Shown piece by piece: positions 4,363 to 46,621 of a stretch of 46,621 nt of DNA; the first letter of the stretch is position 1, and every line of letters begins with the position of its first letter. The notes below the pieces were generated by a model. The model had not been told where the DNA came from. It saw only the letters and a program-made list of their open reading frames with translations, and searched no databases. A program made the translations under genes and the position numbers. Origin of the DNA: a virus; the IMG/VR virus record IMGVR_UViG_3300047089_000265, positions 1 through 46,621 of that record; one strand, written 5' to 3'.

Positions 4363-4539
4363 CTAGTTACTAACTTCGCGTAATTCGCTGGCTTCGGCTT
4401 TTAACTGCTGCTTCAGTTTGGCCTCTGCACAACGGGCACAGAACTTACCGCAGCTTCCGTTCCAGCGGTCAAAGACTTCTTTGCTGGCGCGTTTGGGACA
4501 CGCCGCGCACTTGACCTGAAGATATTTGAGATAGGCCAC
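4363..4539 (-). CDS. Small zinc-binding protein, 58 aa
   Basis: The downstream part of a longer open frame looks like a genuine protein. It has two Cys pairs (KCAACPK and KFCARCAE) that could bind one zinc, followed by a charged helix (AKLKQQLKAEASEL). The part upstream of the GTG at 4539 is translated 12-bp repeat array and is not credible as protein. There is no good ribosome site, so the start is uncertain; reading through the array from 4803 (146 aa) is a less likely alternative. Function is unknown. Zinc-binding mini-proteins recur in this genome. Confidence 0.5.
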   Translation of the reverse strand: MAYLKYLQVKCAACPKRASKEVFDRWNGSCGKFCARCAEAKLKQQLKAEASELREVSN

Positions 4540-4553
4540 AACGTCGTTCTTGA

Positions 4554-4870
4554 CCCGCAGCTTCCGGTGCGTGCGTTCTACCGTGCTCCCGCAGCTTCCA
4601 GACTTCGCAAACCCCGCAGCTTCCGAGCCAATCCGGCGGCACCGCAGCTTCCACGGTGACGGGCATGCCGCAGCTTCCCGCACATCGCAAAGGCGTCCCG
4701 CAGCTTCCCGGCCAGTTGGGCACCACCCGCAGCTTCTACCGGTGAACTGCCCCGCAGCTTCCGCGACCAGGCGGGCCGCATGCCGTAGCTTCCCGGTGGC
4801 CAAGCGAACAGCCCGCAGCTTCCGGCAATTCGGTCCGCCTGCCCGCAGCTTCCTGTCTTCCGAACCTGGT
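4554..4870 (-). repeat. Array A, main block: 11 copies of the 12-bp motif
   Basis: Plus-strand reading gives CCCGCAGCTTCC (minus: GGAAGCTGCGGG) eleven times, with single-base variants such as CCGTAGCTTCC. Separating segments are unrelated in sequence and 13-22 bases long, about 17 on average. The block directly abuts structured element A on the side expected if the element is read first on the minus strand. It lies inside the late structural operon between a scaffold-side gene and the decoration gene. All three minus frames stay open across much of it, producing spurious ORFs. Confidence 0.9.
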
Positions 4871-5025
4871 CCCGCAGCCGCCGGTAAAAATTCAGTGGAA
4901 GCTTACGCGGCTGCCGCGGCCTAATGCGCGGATATCGCGTACGTTTAGCAGCTTTCCGCGGACGTTCGGGCCGGCAAGCGTGCCCGACGGTGACCGCGCT
5001 GCGCCTGACGGTGGCGCTCAAGTCC
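4871..5025 (-). ncRNA. Structured array-associated element, copy A
   Basis: This copy matches copies at 28071-28221, 20514-20660 and 43471-43613. On the minus strand it begins with a GCGCC-ACCGTCA-GGCGC hairpin (5017-5001) and ends GGCGGCTGCGGG, which resembles the array repeat. An inverted near-copy of the repeat lies at 4897-4910. GCAGCCGC and GCGGCTGC can form an 8-bp stem around it. Helix conservation with base-pair compensation in copy C suggests a functional RNA. Strand is inferred from array position. Confidence 0.65.
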
Positions 5026-5033
5026 TATTCTGC

Positions 5034-5065
5034 GGGTTGTGGGTTATGGGGTGATGGGTGATGGG
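5034..5065 (+). repeat. G-tract with 7-bp period, potential G-quadruplex
   Basis: GGG tracts recur every 7-8 bases (GGGTTGT GGGTTAT GGGGTGAT GGGTGAT GGG), five tracts in all. It lies 8 bases from element A. Element B has the same kind of tract 12 bases away, so the two appear to travel together. Confidence 0.75.
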
Positions 5066-5084
5066 CAGGCCACCCTGTGCATAT

Positions 5085-5213
5085 CCCGCAGCTTCCATTT
5101 GTTGCAGCATCCCGCAGCTTCCAGGCACAAACACCCGACGTGTGCCCGCAGCTTCCTGATCAAGGTCATCTACCCCGCGGCTTCCGCTATACCCGCATTG
5201 TCCCGCAGCTTCC
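5085..5213 (-). repeat. Array A, leader-side block: five repeats
   Basis: Five copies of the motif, one of them degenerate (CCCGCGGCTTCC), lie on the other side of element A and its G-tract, in the same orientation as the main block. The last copy ends 13 bases before the stop of the 5227-5823 gene. Separating segments are 14-27 bases long. Confidence 0.85.
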
Positions 5214-8180: not shown

Positions 8181-8480
8181 TTATCTATGCCAGCCGTGCT
8201 TCCGCGGCGCTTCCGCCTTGTCAGCTACCGGCGCTTCGGACGGCGGCGCGGCGGCCACGGCGTCAGCCGGCGGTTGTTCCGGCGGCGCATAGACCAGCTC
8301 GCAGATGGCGTCCACTATTTCGAGGGCCCGTGCCGCCAGGTCGGACGGAGGAATGCCGCCGGCGTCGACGCCGTGCGGTGCGACCAGTCCGGAGGTCACA
8401 ATGGCCGCTGCCTGGACGCGCTGTTCCGGCGGTATCGGAGAGGCCGCGGCCTCGGTTGCTGTTTGTCGTTCTTGCTTCAT
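8181..8480 (-). CDS. Small late protein, paralogue of 9656-9946, 99 aa
   Basis: The real start is the ATG at 8480 (MKQERQTATEAAA); the longer frame runs backwards through the beta-propeller gene. Residues about 15-60 (QRVQAAAIVTSGLV, DAGGIPPSDLAARALEIV) are nearly identical to the protein at 9656-9946. The C-terminus is Ala/Pro-rich and unrelated between them. The repeated block looks like a short helical domain. The two copies flank the beta-propeller and a small 88-residue protein, pointing to an internal duplication. Function is unknown. Confidence 0.7.
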   Translation of the reverse strand: MKQERQTATEAAASPIPPEQRVQAAAIVTSGLVAPHGVDAGGIPPSDLAARALEIVDAICELVYAPPEQPPADAVAAAPPSEAPVADKAEAPRKHGWHR

Positions 8481-9655: not shown

Positions 9656-9946
9656 TCAGACCGGCGTCAGCGTAATCACGCCGCTGACGGCCTCGCCGCC
9701 GGCGCCTGGAGGCGGGATCACGATCGGATGCTCCGGCACGGCAGGCGGCTCATAGACCGCCTGGGTAATCGCGTTCACGATTTCGAGAGCCCGCGCCGCC
9801 AGTTCGGACGGAGGAATGCCGCCGGCGTCTATGCCGTGCGCGGATACGAGGCCGGAGGCGACGATTGCCGCGGCCTGTACCTGCTGTTCCGGCGTGATCG
9901 GATTGCCGGCGGCCAGCTCCAATGTTTTTAGCCGGACGAGTTTCAT
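9656..9946 (-). CDS. Small late protein, paralogue of 8181-8480, 96 aa
   Basis: It starts MKLVRLKTLELAAG at 9946, overlapping the upstream TGA. The block QQVQAAAIVASGLV followed by DAGGIPPSELAARALEIV matches the 8181-8480 protein closely. The C-terminus is different, with Pro/Gly-rich VIPPPGAGGEAV. Function is unknown. Confidence 0.7.
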   Translation of the reverse strand: MKLVRLKTLELAAGNPITPEQQVQAAAIVASGLVSAHGIDAGGIPPSELAARALEIVNAITQAVYEPPAVPEHPIVIPPPGAGGEAVSGVITLTPV

Positions 9947-20388: not shown

Positions 20389-20487
20389 CCCGCAGCTTCC
20401 GCGCACGCGCGAGCGGCTACGCGGGCAGCGGCCGGCTTTACCGCACCAGCGCATCCCGCAGCTTCCGCGCACGCGCGAGCAGCTACG
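20389..20487 (-). repeat. Array C: two long-form repeats
   Basis: Two copies start at 20389 and 20455. Each is the 12-bp motif extended on the plus strand by GCGCACGCGCGAGC and an (A/G)GCTAC block, giving a unit of about 32 bp, separated by about 33 unrelated bases. The extended form also occurs at 27952 and 28006. On either strand the unit can fold as an imperfect hairpin. Element C follows at 20514. Confidence 0.8.
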
Positions 20488-20513
20488 GCCCAATCCGAAC
20501 TGACTGAACTGCC

Positions 20514-20660
20514 CCCGCAGCTGGCGCTAAAAACAAAGTGGAAGCCCACGGGGCTGCCGCGCGGCGAACCGCGAATATCCCGTGCGTTTAACAGCCTTCC
20601 GCGAGCGGCTGGGCCGGTAAACGTACCCGCCGGTGATCGCGCTGGGCTTGTCGGTAGCCC
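20514..20660 (-). ncRNA. Structured array-associated element, copy C (divergent)
   Basis: The most divergent of the four copies. The terminal hairpin that reads GCGCC/GGCGC in the others is GGGCT-TGTCGGT-AGCCC here (20644-20660), so two base pairs changed on both sides together. The inverted repeat-like segment (20540-20553) reads GGAAGCCCACGGGG, and the flanking stem is shorter (GCAGC/GCTGC). The helical compensation is the best single line of evidence for conserved RNA structure. Strand is inferred from the array. Confidence 0.6.
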
Positions 20661-20673
20661 AAAATGGTCGAAC

Positions 20674-26961: not shown

Positions 26962-27329
26962 GCGAACACAAAAACATCAGGCTGCTGGTCCAGGAAGACG
27001 GCGGCACGGTATGGCGCACGCTGAAAGGTGAGTTGCTGGTGGGCGCGCTGACCGATGACTGCCGCCCGCTTCTTTCATACCAGGCCGATTATGAGCAGCG
27101 CGAACGCTGGGGGTTTGATATGTGGTACGTCATCCGCAGCACCTCCGGTAAGCTGGTGGTCTACCGCCAGCCGATGCTCAACGAAGATGGGCCTCCAACC
27201 GTTACTGTCTACGATTCCTTCGAAGCTATGCAGCCGCACGTACCGCCCAACATCTACAACACGGCGATGGAGAAGGCCGGTCTGAAGCCGCCGCCGCAGT
27301 TTCCGGAACTGCCACTCGAAGGCGTGTGA
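26958..27329 (+). CDS. Unknown protein, 123 aa
   Basis: It starts MSEHKNIRLLVQEDGG. It has several beta strands (GTVWRTLKGELLVGAL, WYVIRSTSGKLVVYRQP) and a helical C-terminus (PNIYNTAMEKAGLKPP). No family is assigned. It is co-transcribed with the next HTH gene through overlapping stop and start. Confidence 0.6.
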   Translation: MSEHKNIRLLVQEDGGTVWRTLKGELLVGALTDDCRPLLSYQADYEQRERWGFDMWYVIRSTSGKLVVYRQPMLNEDGPPTVTVYDSFEAMQPHVPPNIYNTAMEKAGLKPPPQFPELPLEGV

Positions 27330-27862
27330 TGCCGCGCCCAGCACCCAAAACCCAGAACCCAGCACCCTCCGCTTGGGCTAAAACCGGCAAAACGAAAGCT
27401 GAAGCCGCCTCGCTCCTCGGCATCTCGGAGAAAGCCGTAGAGCGAGCCTCGCAGCGCGCGGTCGATCCGATCCGCGCCGCCTGGCGCCAGGAACCGGGCA
27501 AGCGGTCTTACCGGGTTTATCACCCGGAAGACCTGGCCAAGCTGCGCCGTGCCCTGCCCCGGCAGGTAACCGGCGAGTTGGTGCCGACCGCTACAACTGC
27601 CGTTGCCGCCATAAAAACCGCCCTAGGTTCGTCCAACGGCACCAAACTGACAGTCCAGGTCCTTCCGGCGCCGCGACGGAGGCCGGTGATGACCGTTGCC
27701 GAGGTAGCCGAGGAGCTGGGAGTTTCCCGCACGATGGTCAGGCGAGCCATCGCCATTGGCGATTTGGCGAGTTTTCGGGACGGGCACGTACGGGTGTTCC
27801 GCAGCGCCGCCGAGGCTTGGCTGGCGCGGCTGGAAGCGGCTTGTCGACAGGGTGGGTTCTAG
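27329..27862 (+). CDS. MerR/excisionase-type HTH protein, 177 aa
   Basis: The N-terminus is encoded by a C-tract (PRPAPKTQNPAPS). A first HTH-like segment lies at about residues 20-45 (TKAEAASLLGISEKAVERASQRA). A second clear helix-turn-helix lies at about 118-145 (MTVAEVAEELGVSRTMVRRAIAIGDL), of the excisionase/DNA-binding domain type with a wing. Such a protein could be an excisionase, repressor or transposition-like regulator. It is the last gene of the rightward operon, facing the TnpB-like gene and array B. Confidence 0.72.
   Translation: MPRPAPKTQNPAPSAWAKTGKTKAEAASLLGISEKAVERASQRAVDPIRAAWRQEPGKRSYRVYHPEDLAKLRRALPRQVTGELVPTATTAVAAIKTALGSSNGTKLTVQVLPAPRRRPVMTVAEVAEELGVSRTMVRRAIAIGDLASFRDGHVRVFRSAAEAWLARLEAACRQGGF
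27337..27367 (-). repeat. C-tract with 7-bp period at a gene start
   Basis: Five CCC tracts are spaced by AGCA, AAAA, AGAA and AGCA. It encodes part of the N-terminus of the HTH protein (Pro-Lys-Thr-Gln-Asn-Pro). Confidence 0.75.
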
Positions 27863-27898: not shown

Positions 27899-28038
27899 CC
27901 CGCAGCTTCCACGCGCGCGCGAACGGCTAGTCGATTAGATCGTAGCCTCTACCCGCAGCTTCCGCGCGCGTGCGAGCGGCTACGGAAGGTTGCCCGCAAT
28001 GCGTACCCGCAGCTTCCGCGCGCGTGCGAGCGGCTACG
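27899..28038 (-). repeat. Array B, distal block: three repeats, long form
   Basis: Copies begin at 27899, 27952 and 28006, spaced 53 and 54 bp, the most regular spacing of any block. The last two carry the extension GCGCGCGTGCGAGC plus GGCTACG, giving a unit of about 32 bp; the first has a diverged extension. Between 27863 and 27898 there is also a short tandem (ACACAACAT three times). Read on the minus strand, the block follows element B. Confidence 0.85.
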
Positions 28039-28070
28039 CGGTTTCTGCGGTTTTCTTACGCGCAGATAGC

Positions 28071-28221
28071 CCCGCAGCCGCCGGTAAATTCAGTGGAAGC
28101 TTACGCGGCTGCTGCAGTTGCCTGCAGATATCGCGTACGTTTAGCAGCTTTCCGGGAGCGTTCAGGCCGGTAAACGTGCCTGACGGTGATCCCGCTGCGC
28201 CTGACGGTGGCGCTCAAGTCC
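28071..28221 (-). ncRNA. Structured array-associated element, copy B
   Basis: Nearly identical in key segments to copy A. It has the GCGCC/GGCGC hairpin at 28197-28213, a 9-bp helix GTACGTTTA/TAAACGTGC (28135-28143 with 28171-28179, one wobble) and an inverted repeat-like segment GGAAGCTTACGCGG (28095-28108). An 8-bp stem GCAGCCGC/GCGGCTGC flanks the last. It sits inside array B, downstream of the TnpB-like gene on the same strand. It is a candidate guide-scaffold or trans-acting RNA; function is inferred. Confidence 0.7.
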
Positions 28222-28233
28222 AATATACGCTGC

Positions 28234-28265
28234 GGGTGTTGGGTTATGGGGTGTTGGGTTTTGGG
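28234..28265 (+). repeat. G-tract with 7-bp period next to element B
   Basis: GGG tracts recur every 7-8 bases (GGGTGTT GGGTTAT GGGGTGTT GGGTTTT GGG). The order element, G-tract, repeats is the same as at copy A. Confidence 0.75.
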
Positions 28266-28276
28266 CAGGCCGATTA

Positions 28277-28635
28277 CCCGTAGCTTCCCTTTCAGGATGA
28301 AAGCATCCCGCAGCTTCCATGTCTGCCCCGCAGCTTCCAACCTCGCACGCCGCCCGCAGCTTCCTCACGTCGAAGCCTTCCCGCAGCTTCCATTCCCTGT
28401 TCCGCGCAGCTTTAGACCGCGACCGACTCCCGCAGCTTCCAAAATTCCAGTCTGAACATTGGCATCGATCCCGCAGCTTCCTCTTCGTCTATCCCCGCAG
28501 CTTCCAGCAGATGCCCTGCCCCATCCCGCAGCTTCCGCAACCTCGATGTAACGCCCGCAGCTTCCGCCCATCACCTATACCCGCAGCTTCCACCTTCTCG
28601 TCCCGCAGCTTCCACCTTCTCATTCCGTAGCTTCC
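28277..28635 (-). repeat. Array B, main block: 13-14 repeats beside the TnpB-like gene
   Basis: Thirteen good copies and one degenerate copy (GCGCAGCTTT) of the 12-bp motif. Intervening segments range from 8 to 29 bases and are otherwise unrelated, except that the last two are almost the same (ACCTTCTCGT, ACCTTCTCAT), a recent unit duplication. The copy at 28624-28635 lies inside the final codons of the 28620-29831 gene. The block could therefore be the 3' part of that gene's transcript. Confidence 0.9.
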
Positions 28636-29831
28636 GGTTCCGGCTCCGCTGCCGGTGCCTCGCCGGCCGCATGCTCGAACTCCAGACCGGCCGCGCCCAC
28701 TTTTTCCTGGATCAGCGCCCGGAGCCTGTACCAGGGTAACCCTTCGCAAAAACTCTGGTCGCTGTCATCGTACACTACCGCGCTGAAGCGCCGCCGTGCC
28801 GCATAGCCTGCCAGTTGCGCGGCAATCTCATGCGTTGCCGAGTCCATGCGGTTGCGATACTTGGCCGCTGCCGCCTCGCGCCGTTGCGCGAACGCCGGTA
28901 CCGGCCGCTGCTCGTATTTCTGATCATCGGACCATCGATCGAGCTGCTTGCGATGCTCTGCGCTCCACCTGCGCAGGTGGTCGCCGTTGTACGTCCACAG
29001 CTTTTCGTCGTTCAAATTTACCGCGACCAACAGCGAGTCTTTGGACGTGTGTACCCGGAGTGTCGACAGCCTGACCGGTGACACCGCAGCCTGCCTGGGC
29101 AGCCACGCGACCATCTTGCACATCAGGACTGGCGGGTTACCGCGCTGGTACAGGGCGGCCTCGCCGGCGATCGCCTCCCCGCGGGCCAGCAGGCGCACCG
29201 AGGCCAGCTGCCGCCGGAACTGCGAGCCGCTCTTCAGCCGCATTTCCCGCCGCGCCTCGCCGATGCGGATCGACAATATCGGCTTGTCTTCTTCGATCCG
29301 GACGGCCCAGCTCTGGTTGTGGACGGGCACCGGGATCGGATACCGGAAGCTCGGCAGGGAGTTGGCTCGGGTCCAGATGACGGGGTAGCGGATCGCCCGG
29401 TATTTGCGGGTGATGGCCTGCTCGAGCGCGACCACGGTAGCCGGCGACAGTGCTGGAAACTCGGCACGTAAGGCCGGGTACAGGTAGGTTCTTGCCATCG
29501 GCGGCATTTTCTCTTCGCCCGGATGCCGGCGCACGTCGGTTGCGTACAGCTCCGTAATGATGTAGTTGGCGGCTCGTGTAGTTTCCCGCCAGGCCGCTTT
29601 CACGTCGTCTCGCAGTTCCTTCCAGGTACAGCCGATCGGGGCTGCTACCGGCATGCTGACGGCGCGGAGCAGGTATCGCTTGTTCCAGCAGTCGGCGCAG
29701 TACGTTTCATCCTCGTGGGCTTTCCAGCCGCGGGGCGTGCGCGGCTTGTTGGCCGGCGTGAGTTTGGTTTTGCAGGTTTTGCGGCAGTCCGTACAGACCG
29801 CTTCGGTTGCTTCGGGGGTCAAGACTGGCAT
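28620..29831 (-). CDS. TnpB/Cas12-like RuvC-fold protein, probably nuclease-impaired, 403 aa
   Basis: The start is ATG 29831 (MPVLTPEATEAVC); an earlier frame crosses a terminator and palindrome and is rejected. Cys13, Cys16, Cys45 and Cys48 form an N-terminal zinc knuckle. Helices at about residues 70-145 are followed by SLPSFRYPIPVPVHNQ (158-173), a WED-like segment of TnpB and small Cas12 proteins. The RuvC-I strand reads VAVNLN (269-274), with Asn where the family has Asp. RuvC-II reads AVVYDD (351-356), where Glu is usual, followed by LPWYRLRALIQEKVGAAG (365-382). The usual C-terminal zinc ribbon and third Asp are missing. It is next to array B and the structured element, with no transposon ends or TnpA. 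An RNA-guided binder is my inference; the family call is moderate. Confidence 0.6.
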   Translation of the reverse strand: MPVLTPEATEAVCTDCRKTCKTKLTPANKPRTPRGWKAHEDETYCADCWNKRYLLRAVSMPVAAPIGCTWKELRDDVKAAWRETTRAANYIITELYATDVRRHPGEEKMPPMARTYLYPALRAEFPALSPATVVALEQAITRKYRAIRYPVIWTRANSLPSFRYPIPVPVHNQSWAVRIEEDKPILSIRIGEARREMRLKSGSQFRRQLASVRLLARGEAIAGEAALYQRGNPPVLMCKMVAWLPRQAAVSPVRLSTLRVHTSKDSLLVAVNLNDEKLWTYNGDHLRRWSAEHRKQLDRWSDDQKYEQRPVPAFAQRREAAAAKYRNRMDSATHEIAAQLAGYAARRRFSAVVYDDSDQSFCEGLPWYRLRALIQEKVGAAGLEFEHAAGEAPAAEPEPEATE

Positions 29832-29870
29832 GACGAGACATTGTAGTCCCGGGCTGGCGGATTGGCTAGT

Positions 29871-29894
29871 GGACAGGCTGTCGACAGCCTGTCC
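29871..29894. promoter_or_regulatory. Perfect 24-bp palindrome upstream of the TnpB-like gene
   Basis: The arms GGACAGGCTGTC/GACAGCCTGTCC meet without a spacer. It lies about 40 bases upstream of the ATG at 29831 and just downstream of a terminator on the minus strand. A TACAAT -10-like box lies at about 29840-29845. It is an operator candidate for a repressor, possibly the gene product itself or the HTH protein of the facing operon. Confidence 0.6.
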
Positions 29895-29899
29895 GGAGC

Positions 29900-29937
29900 A
29901 AAAAAAACGGCGCGGCCGGCAGTTTACCGGTCGCGCC
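29900..29937 (-). terminator. Rho-independent terminator
   Basis: On the minus strand an 11-bp GC-rich stem (GGCGCGACCGG / CCGGCCGCGCC, one G-T pair) with a 7-base loop is followed by C and eight Ts. It ends the long late transcript from the 30029-30274 gene and insulates the TnpB-like gene, which must have its own promoter. Confidence 0.85.
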
Positions 29938-30028
29938 ACATTTCAGGGGTTAGTCACTTTGGAAAAGGCCGGCGCCGCCGTGTGGCGTCCGCCTCGTTTA
30001 GCAGGATAACGCAATTCGCGGAAGGTCG

Positions 30029-43386: not shown

Positions 43387-43427
43387 GGAAGCTGCGGGTA
43401 TGACGACAAAGACCAGGAAGCTACGGG
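43387..43427 (+). repeat. Array D, leader-side repeats
   Basis: Two copies (43387-43398 GGAAGCTGCGGG and 43416-43427 GGAAGCTACGGG) lie upstream of element D when read on the plus strand. Confidence 0.8.
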
Positions 43428-43470
43428 GCGAGCCGTGGGTTATCATTTGAACTCGTGCTAAATTTCTTTT

Positions 43471-43613
43471 GCGCCACCGTCAGGCGCAGCGCGGTCACCG
43501 GCGGATACGTTTACCGGTCCAGCCGTCCGCGGAAAGCTGCAAAACGTACGGGATATCTGCAGGCCACTGCGGCAGCCCCGTAAGCTTCCACTGAATTAAC
43601 CGGCGGCTGCGGG
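43471..43613 (+). ncRNA. Structured array-associated element, copy D
   Basis: Opposite orientation to the other three copies. It contains the GCGCC/GGCGC hairpin (43471-43487), the inverted repeat-like segment CCCCGTAAGCTTCC (43576-43589) and ends CGGCGGCTGCGGG. Its direction is against the leftward tail genes on both sides, so transcription of this copy would be antisense to the operon. Confidence 0.65.
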
Positions 43614-43654
43614 TCGCTCGTCGTCGTGCGGGCGTGGGTCATGGAGCATCAGCC

Positions 43655-43863
43655 GGAAGCTGCGGGTTGCCCCCGGATTGCCGGAAGCTGCGGGTGAGCG
43701 CCGCACAAGCCGGAAGCTGCGGGTGCGGCATGATTCTGATCACCCGGAAGCTGCGGTGGACCGCCAGCCGGGAAGCTACGGCATGCCCGCCACCGTGGAA
43801 GCTGCGGGGCTGATGTCAGTCGTCCGGAAGCTGCGGGATGCGCGAGAATTGGAAAGCTGCGGG
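43655..43863 (+). repeat. Array D, main block: eight repeats
   Basis: Eight copies of GGAAGCTGCGGG or single-base variants, separated by unrelated 13-22-base segments. The block ends 14 bases before the stop of the 43878-44564 gene. Reading on the plus strand, the order is two repeats, element D, then this block, mirroring array A. Confidence 0.9.
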
Positions 43864-44567: not shown

Positions 44568-46621
44568 TTAGTGGCAGTTAAACTGAGTGCCGGTGAACAC
44601 GGCGATCGCGCCCGTGCCGCTACCTGTGCATGGCGCGCTGTTCGGAGTGCCGTCGGTTATGTACAGTTCGATGCCCGCCTGTAAGCCGGGTATGCCGGCG
44701 ACGATGTTGGCCATCGCGGTCTTGTACAGAAAGCCGGGAGTCAGAGGCGCGGAAGCCAGGGCACGCTGGCAGAGTCCGGATGTCGTACCGGAAACGATGT
44801 TGCCCGCCTCGGCGATCTGCGCATTGTTGCCGCAGACTACCGCATAGTTGCTGCCCCCCTGAATGATAATATTCCCGACCAGGTTCATGCCGGTCGAGGC
44901 GTTGATCTGCACGGTAGGCAGGGTCGCGGAGTTCTGGTTGAACTGATTGGCTACCAGGGTCAGATTATTCTGGGTGATCTGCGTCGATCCGACCTGACTG
45001 CCGATCATGGTGTTGAGCTGCCCGGAGATCGGGAAGTGCGCCGCAAAGTTATTGGACTGCGACGTATTGCCGCCCACTCCGCAGGAGAGCGCATTCACGT
45101 TCACTAGACGGTTTTGGGTGCCTCCGATGTAGAGACACCTTCCCTGATTCTGGAAGAACAGCACGTCGGTGATATTGATGTTGGTTGCCGAGGAATCCAG
45201 CTCGATGCCGATGGCCGCTGTGTTGGTAGCCCACGGCGCACCGCTGTACGGCATACCTTCGTACTGGATCGTGACGTGATTGATCTGGCCGCCGTACCCG
45301 TTGATGTAGAGGCCGCCCGAATAATCGTTGTTCAAGTAACTAAGATGTCCGCCAAGCCAAAAGCCGCTCTGCGCTGCGTGAATGCCCCATCCTCCGTTGC
45401 CGAAAGTCTGCACGCCTCCGAACCAGACACCACCGTTGCCGGTGTGGGTCGAGTTATTGACATATTCGATGCCGTGCTGGCCCGCAGCTACGGTGATGAT
45501 GTCGACAAAGTGTCCCTGACCCCCTCCGAGCGTGATGTTGTCGAGCACCGAACCGGCCACGATCAGGTTGTCGGCTTGGCCGTTGCCGCCTCCGCCGTCC
45601 ACATAGAGCCCCTGGTAGAATTTGCTGATACTGACATCGTTGATCGACCAGTTATTGGCCAGTGCCGGATTGCCCGAGCAGCCGCCGCCGCAGGTGTGGA
45701 TGCCGATGGACGAGGTCGGCGTGCCCACCTGGCTGAGCATGCAGCCTCCAGACATCGAAAAGCCGTCAAACACCACGTTGAACATGCTGCCGGTCAGCGC
45801 ATTGTATTTCAGCTGCACGCCTGCCGTGCCGTAGCTGTAGGCCGCTCCGCAGTTCACGCTGCCGACGTTGGGCGGGGTGGTGGGCGCATAGAAATTGTAG
45901 GTACCCGCCGTAGGCGCAAGAAACGGGCCGAGCGTCCAGGCCTCGGCGAATCCTGCCGATGCGCTGTTGATGGCGTAAGGGCCGGAGTGCGCGTTAGGAC
46001 AGTTCAGAATCATCTGCCCGTTGACCTGTCCCGAGGTGCCCGTGCCGCCGGTGATCGCGCAGGCCTCCGACGGGCCGGTGCCGCCCGACACGTACACGTT
46101 GTGCAGGTAGTCCGAGCCGTTCATGCCGATCGGAACCACGGGGAACGTGACCGTAGTGTTGCCCGCGATCAGCGGTGTGGACGGCTTGACCGCCGCGAAG
46201 TTGTACAGGTTCGGGTTGAGCGTCGATACCACCGCGGCCAGGTTGGTCATGTTCGGGCCGAGTACGCTTTCGATGGACTTGATCTCCGCAGTCGTCGAGT
46301 TGAAATTCCAGGCCGTGATGAAGGCCGAGACAATCGCGCCGGCGTTGTGACCGGCAGCCGCCGTGTGATTGAAGCCGCGCCCGTCCACGTTCGGGCAGCT
46401 CGAGTGCCCGACGTTCATAGTGGAGCCGACAATCGAACAGACCGAGATCTGCTCGTTATCGATCGTGACCAGTTCGTTGGCGACAAACTTAGCCGCGGTC
46501 ACTACGGTGAACGAGGTTGCCGTCGTGTTCAACGGCGTCGTGAGCACGGTCTGGGCATTGTCGGTGGCCACCTTCATGTTCTGATCGGTGGCCACCGCGC
46601 CCGGGAACACGGCAGTCTGAG
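44568..46621 (-). CDS. Tail-spike gene, main body: right-handed beta-helix protein (continues into 127-1)
   Basis: Together with 1-127 this encodes about 705 residues. After the signal peptide comes a short N-terminal beta domain with TAAKFVANELVTIDNEQI and CPNVDGRGFNHTAAAGHNAG. A long series of beta-helix rungs follows, with Asn, Gly and Ser stacks (for example YQGLYVDGGGGNGQADNLIVAG, NNLTLVANQFNQ). These are characteristic of pectate-lyase-like spikes that bind or cleave host surface polysaccharide. More than ten Cys residues are present, unusual for phage spikes and in keeping with secretion. Possible catalytic residues cannot be assigned. The C-terminus ends FTGTQFNCH. Confidence 0.8.
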   Translation of the reverse strand, partial: QTAVFPGAVATDQNMKVATDNAQTVLTTPLNTTATSFTVVTAAKFVANELVTIDNEQISVCSIVGSTMNVGHSSCPNVDGRGFNHTAAAGHNAGAIVSAFITAWNFNSTTAEIKSIESVLGPNMTNLAAVVSTLNPNLYNFAAVKPSTPLIAGNTTVTFPVVPIGMNGSDYLHNVYVSGGTGPSEACAITGGTGTSGQVNGQMILNCPNAHSGPYAINSASAGFAEAWTLGPFLAPTAGTYNFYAPTTPPNVGSVNCGAAYSYGTAGVQLKYNALTGSMFNVVFDGFSMSGGCMLSQVGTPTSSIGIHTCGGGCSGNPALANNWSINDVSISKFYQGLYVDGGGGNGQADNLIVAGSVLDNITLGGGQGHFVDIITVAAGQHGIEYVNNSTHTGNGGVWFGGVQTFGNGGWGIHAAQSGFWLGGHLSYLNNDYSGGLYINGYGGQINHVTIQYEGMPYSGAPWATNTAAIGIELDSSATNINITDVLFFQNQGRCLYIGGTQNRLVNVNALSCGVGGNTSQSNNFAAHFPISGQLNTMIGSQVGSTQITQNNLTLVANQFNQNSATLPTVQINASTGMNLVGNIIIQGGSNYAVVCGNNAQIAEAGNIVSGTTSGLCQRALASAPLTPGFLYKTAMANIVAGIPGLQAGIELYITDGTPNSAPCTGSGTGAIAVFTGTQFNCH
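46559..46621. repeat. Right copy of terminal overlap
   Basis: Matches positions 1-63 with five substitutions in frame. The two versions of the segment read VAPAHNKNVATD and VATDQNMKVATD in the spike protein, so the differences change amino acids. Confidence 0.85.

Follow-up and report, generated by a model that had tools for sequence, protein, structure and literature searches.

Predicted nuclease-dead Cas12f proteins of phages are encoded beside arrays of shortened CRISPR repeats

Introduction

Several relatives of the CRISPR nucleases act on DNA without cutting it. Cas12m (type V-M) protects by DNA binding (PMC11013384), and the phage-encoded TldR proteins, which are nuclease-dead and derived from TnpB, repress with guides down to 6 nt (PMC13418256). 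In CasMu-V, a type V-F CRISPR-associated transposon, a Cas12 inactivated by loss of RuvC-III is found with a CRISPR array on a mobile element (PMC10910872, PMC11656645). Natural nuclease-deactivated Cas12f (dCas12f) proteins have had their structures solved with guide RNA and DNA (PDB 9n9c, 9n9m). Here, we describe a 46,621-base IMG/VR virus record (IMGVR_UViG_3300047089_000265; "the window" denotes this whole stretch), in which a 403-residue protein, predicted to be a dCas12f, is encoded next to an array of ~12-nt repeats (mini-repeats) and a structured RNA element. From the sequence, an original prediction had proposed a phage RNA-guided protein with several guides per array, and this proposal is supported in part by the analysis reported below.

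By its modelled fold, the phage dCas12f family with mini-repeat arrays is a variant of type V-F: the fold appears to be derived from Cas12f, the nuclease feature is lost, and the partners of CasMu-V and of dCas12f-sigma systems were not found; no gene recurred beside dCas12f in 23 loci, be it cas1/cas2, a sigma factor or a transposase. With type V-F Cas12f (AsCas12f, OsCas12f), the family shares the fold from residue 54 on, a scaffold resembling trans-activating CRISPR RNA (tracrRNA) and, in relatives, a canonical array. It differs in that the phage proteins lack RuvC-III and the region that follows, have their catalytic residues replaced, come with mini-repeat arrays, are phage-borne and have no recurring second cas gene. 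The natural dCas12f is also derived from Cas12f and of similar size, and the alignment covers all of its solved chain, which stops at the same point as the phage proteins. However, identity over this structural alignment is 14%, and the phage family has tens of mini-repeats and no recurring partner.

The likeness to CasMu-V lies in RuvC-III loss, the array and the mobile setting, but no Mu transposase (MuA/MuB) was seen among the main open reading frames (ORFs) scanned in the window. TldR is likewise phage-encoded and nuclease-dead, with a structured guide RNA and short guides that suffice; it has one guide per locus, in contrast to the Cas12f ancestry, tracrRNA-like scaffold and multi-guide arrays found here. 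Cas12m, in which binding replaces cutting as we propose for the phage protein, belongs to another Cas12 lineage. Lastly, TIGR-Tas systems also combine a phage-encoded effector with a tandem short-spacer array (PMC12045711), but they use Nop-domain proteins and dual-spacer units and are independent of a protospacer-adjacent motif (PAM), whereas the present locus has a predicted Cas12f fold (residues 52 to 393), a scaffold RNA and one mini-repeat plus one spacer per unit. We found no description of Cas12f mini-repeat arrays in open-licence PMC papers, which is weak evidence, as preprints or subscription journals may hold one.

Results

Mini-repeats pair with the 3' end of a conserved scaffold RNA

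Allowing up to two mismatches, the 12-nt repeat GGAAGCTGCGGG occurs at 61 sites in the window, against 9.2 expected and a maximum of 20 in 100 shuffles. Perfect copies number 33, that is, 27 in array orientation and six in array A4. Four arrays, A1 to A4 (Table 1), hold 49 repeat sites. The original prediction had described the repeats lying 3' of the gene on the same strand, and these were found as described, the first one (28624-28635) overlapping the last codons of the dCas12f gene. It had missed the three other arrays and the copy of the structured element that goes with each of them, as well as five full-length 32-nt repeats (in A2 and distal A3), whose 3' ends correspond to the 12-mer. 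The window spacers are nearly all unique, with a median length of 17 nt.

One copy of the structured element lies within or beside each array. The element spans ~115-150 nt and, in A3, is on the same strand as the gene, as originally predicted. Twenty family copies were aligned and folded with RNAalifold. Fifteen of the 16 predicted pairs showed at least one pair-keeping change on both sides, and a third stem covaried too (GCTGC/GCAGC, GCCGC/GCGGC, GCGGT/ACCGC). Because this structure was predicted from the same sequences as were scored, a covariance-model search of loci not used in building the model carries more weight. It placed the element immediately downstream of the gene in L055 (94.8 bits), L017 (79.8), L056 (68.7) and L021 (50.7), detected it a second time in L012 (85.2 bits) and returned exactly four copies in the window. 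Counting whole contigs, 20 of 21 family records possess the element. Rfam gave no match in the window, scaffold element included. Collectively, these comparisons give good support to a conserved, covarying element that is probably a tracrRNA-like scaffold. One relative, L007 (G401), likewise has the scaffold four times, at 59243, 1082, 1336 and 1651 of its contig; dispersed arrays with several scaffolds thus occur outside the window as well.

The full repeat folds on itself. The mini-repeat is devoid of the 5' arm, but the scaffold retains, at its 3' end, an arm that is complementary to the mini-repeat; in the window, CCGC-GTA-AGCTTCC of the scaffold is predicted to pair with GGAAGCT-GCGG. We combined every mini-repeat with every scaffold across six mini-array phages that differ in their repeats. 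The true combinations gave a summed pairing energy of -94.6 kcal/mol versus a permutation mean of -65.6 kcal/mol, ranking first of 720. Taken individually, five of the six phages beat at least 97% of shuffled mini-repeats, and L023 was marginal, with 5.6% of shuffles as good. This permutation result is the strongest evidence that the mini-repeats would act as parts of RNA, namely handles of CRISPR RNA (crRNA), and not as DNA sites. The logic of scaffold and array is well supported; the targets are not.

Iterons and stoperators are known to form intergenic clusters of short asymmetric sites in direct repeat, and the window repeats have this appearance. They might accordingly have served a phage DNA-binding protein as operators, iterons or partition sites. 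Yet the corresponding position in relatives is taken by full-length CRISPR repeats and canonical arrays, the spacers differ and are irregular, and the repeats covary with a structured RNA. We find this explanation barely credible, and the covariation of mini-repeat and anti-repeat led us to reject operator or iteron sites.

Table 1. Position of the array, scaffold and gene features in the window
Feature	Position	Strand	Remarks
Array A1	4447..5213	-	18 repeat sites around own scaffold
A1 spacer AGCACGGTAGAACGCACGCACC	4566..4587	-	guide of candidate target; its leading 19 nt occur in phage contig L077, adjacent to TTTAG
A1 scaffold	4905..5019	-	101.2 bits
Array A2	20389..20525	-	3 repeat sites: two full-length repeats and one diverged copy
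A2 scaffold	20548..20662	-	105 bits
Array A3, whole	27899-28635	-	17 repeat sites, 3' of dCas12f gene
Array A3, distal part	27899..28037	-	three full-length 32-nt repeats
Scaffold-adjacent diverged repeat GGCGGCTGCGGG	28071..28082	-	putative natural single-guide form
Anti-repeat CCGCGTAAGCTTCC	28095..28108	-	3' end of A3 scaffold; predicted pairing with mini-repeat GGAAGCTGCGG, -18.6 kcal/mol
A3 scaffold (covariance-model core)	28103..28215	-	tracrRNA-like; 104.8 bits
Array A3, gene-proximal part	28277..28635	-	13 mini-repeats, spacers 8-37 nt
dCas12f gene	28620..29831	-	403 aa; N-terminal zinc finger, predicted Cas12f fold, no RuvC-III
Sigma-70-like promoter match	29840..29868	-	9/12 consensus score; 0.3 such sites expected in region
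Palindrome GGACAGGCTGTCGACAGCCTGTCC	29871-29894	.	perfect; upstream of gene; putative operator
Array A4	43387..43863	+	11 repeat sites around own scaffold
A4 scaffold	43469..43581	+	106.6 bits

The protein is a predicted Cas12f homologue without RuvC-III

The 403-residue ORF is present as originally predicted. Phage reference records held no relative of the protein, and neither Pfam nor PHROGs offered a usable family for it. Iterated searches of viral contigs gathered about 20 phage relatives. With a three-member family profile, Cas12f appeared as a hint only (E 0.13), while a 17-member profile searched against the PDB gave 6.7e-10 for Cas12f and 2.3e-4 for the natural "Nuclease-deactivated Cas12f". 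PADLOC called Cas12f at 2.4e-6 for the window protein and at 1.9e-13 for a relative.

Structure prediction, proposed as a check by the original prediction, gave an AlphaFold2 model (pLDDT 87.2, pTM 0.61) with a Cas12f fold, matching Cas12f from residue 52 to 393. Foldseek matched the model to AsCas12f (E 2.1e-17) and the natural dCas12f 9n9c (2.5e-15). In VIA comparisons, the Z score was 22.5 over 314 residues for AsCas12f, 19.4 for 9n9c, ~13 for Cas12k and TnpB and ~12 for Cas12m. The whole-chain root-mean-square deviation was large (8-13 Å), probably due to lobe positions, the N-terminal lobe alone giving 2-3 Å. From these profile and fold matches, we take the protein to be a Cas12f (type V-F) homologue and not merely TnpB-like. 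The "TnpB/Cas12-like" label was right as to the superfamily fold and can be refined to a Cas12f with a tracrRNA-like scaffold. Membership in TnpB/TldR was rejected on Z scores of 16-22 for Cas12f structures overall versus ~13 for TnpB, and on profile matches, which were to Cas12f.

The alignment with AsCas12f stops at AsCas12f residue 367, where the phage proteins end; RuvC-III is therefore absent, and this holds for all full-length members among the ~20 phage homologues. When aligned by profile to OsCas12f, the window protein has H261 in place of the RuvC-I Asp, at a position occupied by Arg in the majority of relatives, and D355 in place of the RuvC-II Glu. With the catalytic triad incomplete, the family is predicted to be nuclease-dead. 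In this respect the original prediction held, but the Asn that it assigned to RuvC-I (N272) came from a misalignment and does not occupy the catalytic position. The gene is under purifying selection, as judged from codon-position differences of 0.35/0.24/0.55 between the window and L007.

Upstream of the gene, the predicted palindrome is real. A promoter of its own is compatible with a promoter-like site, which is a consensus match only. As for the upstream terminator, a stem-loop followed by T8 is visible at ~29900-29938, but a strict scan did not list it.

Mini-arrays recur in relatives that also carry canonical arrays

Relatives differed in what follows the scaffold. Repeats of 35-39 nt with ~36-nt spacers were found in 13 loci (L008, L010, L013, L015, L018, L019, L022, L024, L025, L034, L037, L048 and L056), and mainly mini-repeats of 8-12 nt in the window, L007, L009, L012, L016 and L023. 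Both kinds coexist in L008 and L009; in L008, a run of thirteen full repeats gives way to copies of just their final 12 nt, GGAGGCGCTGGC, separated by short spacers. A single guide follows the scaffold in two loci, L026 from a Bryobacteraceae metagenome-assembled genome (MAG) and L055 from an Acidobacteriota chromosome. On the protein tree, the mini state requires four changes, at least three of them forced by well-supported branches, and so it has arisen or been lost repeatedly.

The original prediction had considered that the locus may be an arrangement intermediate between TnpB and Cas12. This was not supported: the canonical arrays (36/36 nt) that relatives have at the equivalent position, the mixed arrays and the scatter of the mini state on the tree point to repeated reduction of canonical CRISPR arrays, which fits better.

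A proposed silencing device with many short guides

We consider it likely that the locus is a stand-alone nuclease-dead type V-F system that binds DNA with many short guides and silences without cutting. In the mechanism that we propose, the gene would yield the protein and the scaffold elements a tracrRNA-like RNA, and the arrays would be transcribed and processed. The mini-repeat, ~12 nt corresponding to the 3' end of an ancestral 32-36-nt repeat, would pair with the anti-repeat of the scaffold, and each mini-repeat with its 3' spacer would form a crRNA with a guide of ~10-20 nt. The scaffold-adjacent repeat would give a natural single-guide RNA. The complex would then bind matching DNA and block transcription or replication, the 49 repeat sites corresponding to ~40 addressable sites. 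Since TldR guides of 6 nt repress, guides of 10-20 nt should be sufficient in principle. Silencing of competing phages or prophages is our first guess for the purpose, by analogy with phage-borne mini-arrays as a whole (PMC11656645), and control of host genes the second.

A different outcome of DNA binding would be activation, in which dCas12f and its guides recruit host RNA polymerase and switch genes on. Activation has been described for natural dCas12f that works with a sigma factor, and the nearest solved dead homologue is the natural dCas12f 9n9c. However, neither a sigma-factor gene nor any other neighbour recurs in the 23 loci, and we hold activation to be improbable.

Several results weigh against silencing by short guides. 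The target search covered reference phages, family phages, 399 host-class genomes and four exact IMG/VR scans, a small search space. Within the window, the longest real prefix match of a spacer was 12 nt, that is, chance level. The 46 long spacers of relatives had no match outside arrays in the fetched loci or in 22 family contigs, chance-level matches only in reference phage records, and weak matches in the 399 host-class genomes, several of which spanned spacer joins. Pooled guide prefixes with a TT flank showed no enrichment in the fetched DNA, apart from the one candidate described below. Moreover, the spacer lengths of the A3 mini-array scatter widely, which would also fit decay.

The arrays could be CRISPR arrays in decay. 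Function would then be confined to the guide beside the scaffold and to whatever full-length repeats there are, with the short repeats persisting as remnants through chance or duplication. The scattered spacer lengths, the mixture of full and mini-repeats in L008 and L009 and the single-guide versions in L026 and L055 are all in line with this. On the other hand, 27 of the repeats in array orientation and six more in A4 are perfect 12-mers, mini-repeat and anti-repeat covary across six phages, and the mini state recurs on the protein tree. We therefore judge decay unlikely, though it deserves to be kept in mind.

Going back to silencing by many short guides, we are inclined, with little to spare, to see a new guide-storage format: a phage nuclease-dead Cas12f would read arrays in which each repeat has been reduced to its anti-repeat-pairing stretch of 8-12 nt, with tens of guides in several arrays, each having a scaffold copy. 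It would serve as a multiplexed repressor of other phages or host genes and would have evolved more than once. If so, soil Acidobacteriota phages own a natural CRISPR-interference device with cassettes of ~12 + 10-20 nt, versus 36 + 36, and a 400-aa protein. A short 3' stretch of the repeat would then suffice as long as the tracrRNA keeps the 5' arm, and the loci would form a natural series from canonical to mixed arrays, mini-arrays and single guides. This would suggest a compact multiplex repressor, and would raise the question of how a phage without adaptation genes fills its arrays.

One candidate target among the spacers

The original prediction had proposed comparing the spacers with related phages and hosts. 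Nearly no match beyond chance emerged in the small search space, which does not amount to a refutation, and a single 19-nt candidate was obtained. Scanned over IMG/VR, the first 19 nt of the A1 spacer AGCACGGTAGAACGCACGCACC were found in the same phage in two other samples (L076 and L078) and in an unrelated contig, L077. The L077 match lies inside a small ORF adjoining tail genes and is preceded by TTTA, then G. If the last repeat base is counted as guide position 1, as suggested by its being variable (G, C, T or A), the match becomes 20 nt with a TTTR flank, and TTTR is the PAM class of Cas12f (PMC8763643). We estimated the chance of the 19-mer match at some tenths, and at ~1/100 with the flank, the one-base shift having been chosen after seeing the site. 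L077 had no other detectable similarity to the window phage, and a chance 19-mer match is not very unlikely in such a collection; both points count against this site, which we regard as a candidate target only. In exact IMG/VR scans, 18-22-mers of two other spacers hit their own array only, and a 29-nt window spacer had no match. For the single guides in G200 and G001, no host target beyond chance was detected.

We noticed that nine of the 40 window spacers start with ATG directly after the mini-repeat (0.5 expected, P 1e-9), which was not seen in relatives; in all three repeats ending in C rather than G, ATG comes next. Such spacers may be aimed at start codons. Two near-identical spacers, ATGCCCGTCACCGT (A1, 4653-4666) and ATGCCCGCCACCGT (A4, 43783-43796), resemble guides directed at two alleles of a single gene start. 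Variant spacer pairs of this kind were also present in the long arrays of L008, L015 and L022.

Genome and probable hosts

The window ends are bridged by contig L076, from another metagenome and >99.9% identical, which makes it probable that this phage has a complete genome that is circular or circularly permuted. The ends themselves (1-63 and 46559-46621) are alike at 58 of 63 bases. Host-side copies of dCas12f were found in a Bryobacteraceae MAG, in an Acidobacteria MAG, where one copy is on the same contig as the viral L017, and on a large contig of a third genome. A profile search of genome contigs returned two MAG contigs with the 17-member alignment and none with the three-member one. 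Only three of the 399 host-class genomes had a dCas12f match, one of them weak, which indicates that dCas12f is mainly a phage trait. The probable hosts are soil Acidobacteriota.

In the Bryobacteraceae MAG, the gene, scaffold and single guide of L026 (9225-9557) lie ~150 nt before a tRNA-Val gene, a position resembling a prophage attachment site. In L055 (G200:C1:1139298-1140446), the single-guide dCas12f sits in an Acidobacteriota chromosome among host-like genes, and its guide region enters the start codon of the next gene; this copy is possibly domesticated.

Elsewhere in the window, a two-helix-turn-helix, excisionase/MerR-like protein is encoded at 27326-27862 on the opposite strand, just past the distal end of A3. 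Close to a beta-propeller-like ORF, a 171-bp direct repeat occupies 8281-8451 and 9744-9914, with 79.5% identity.

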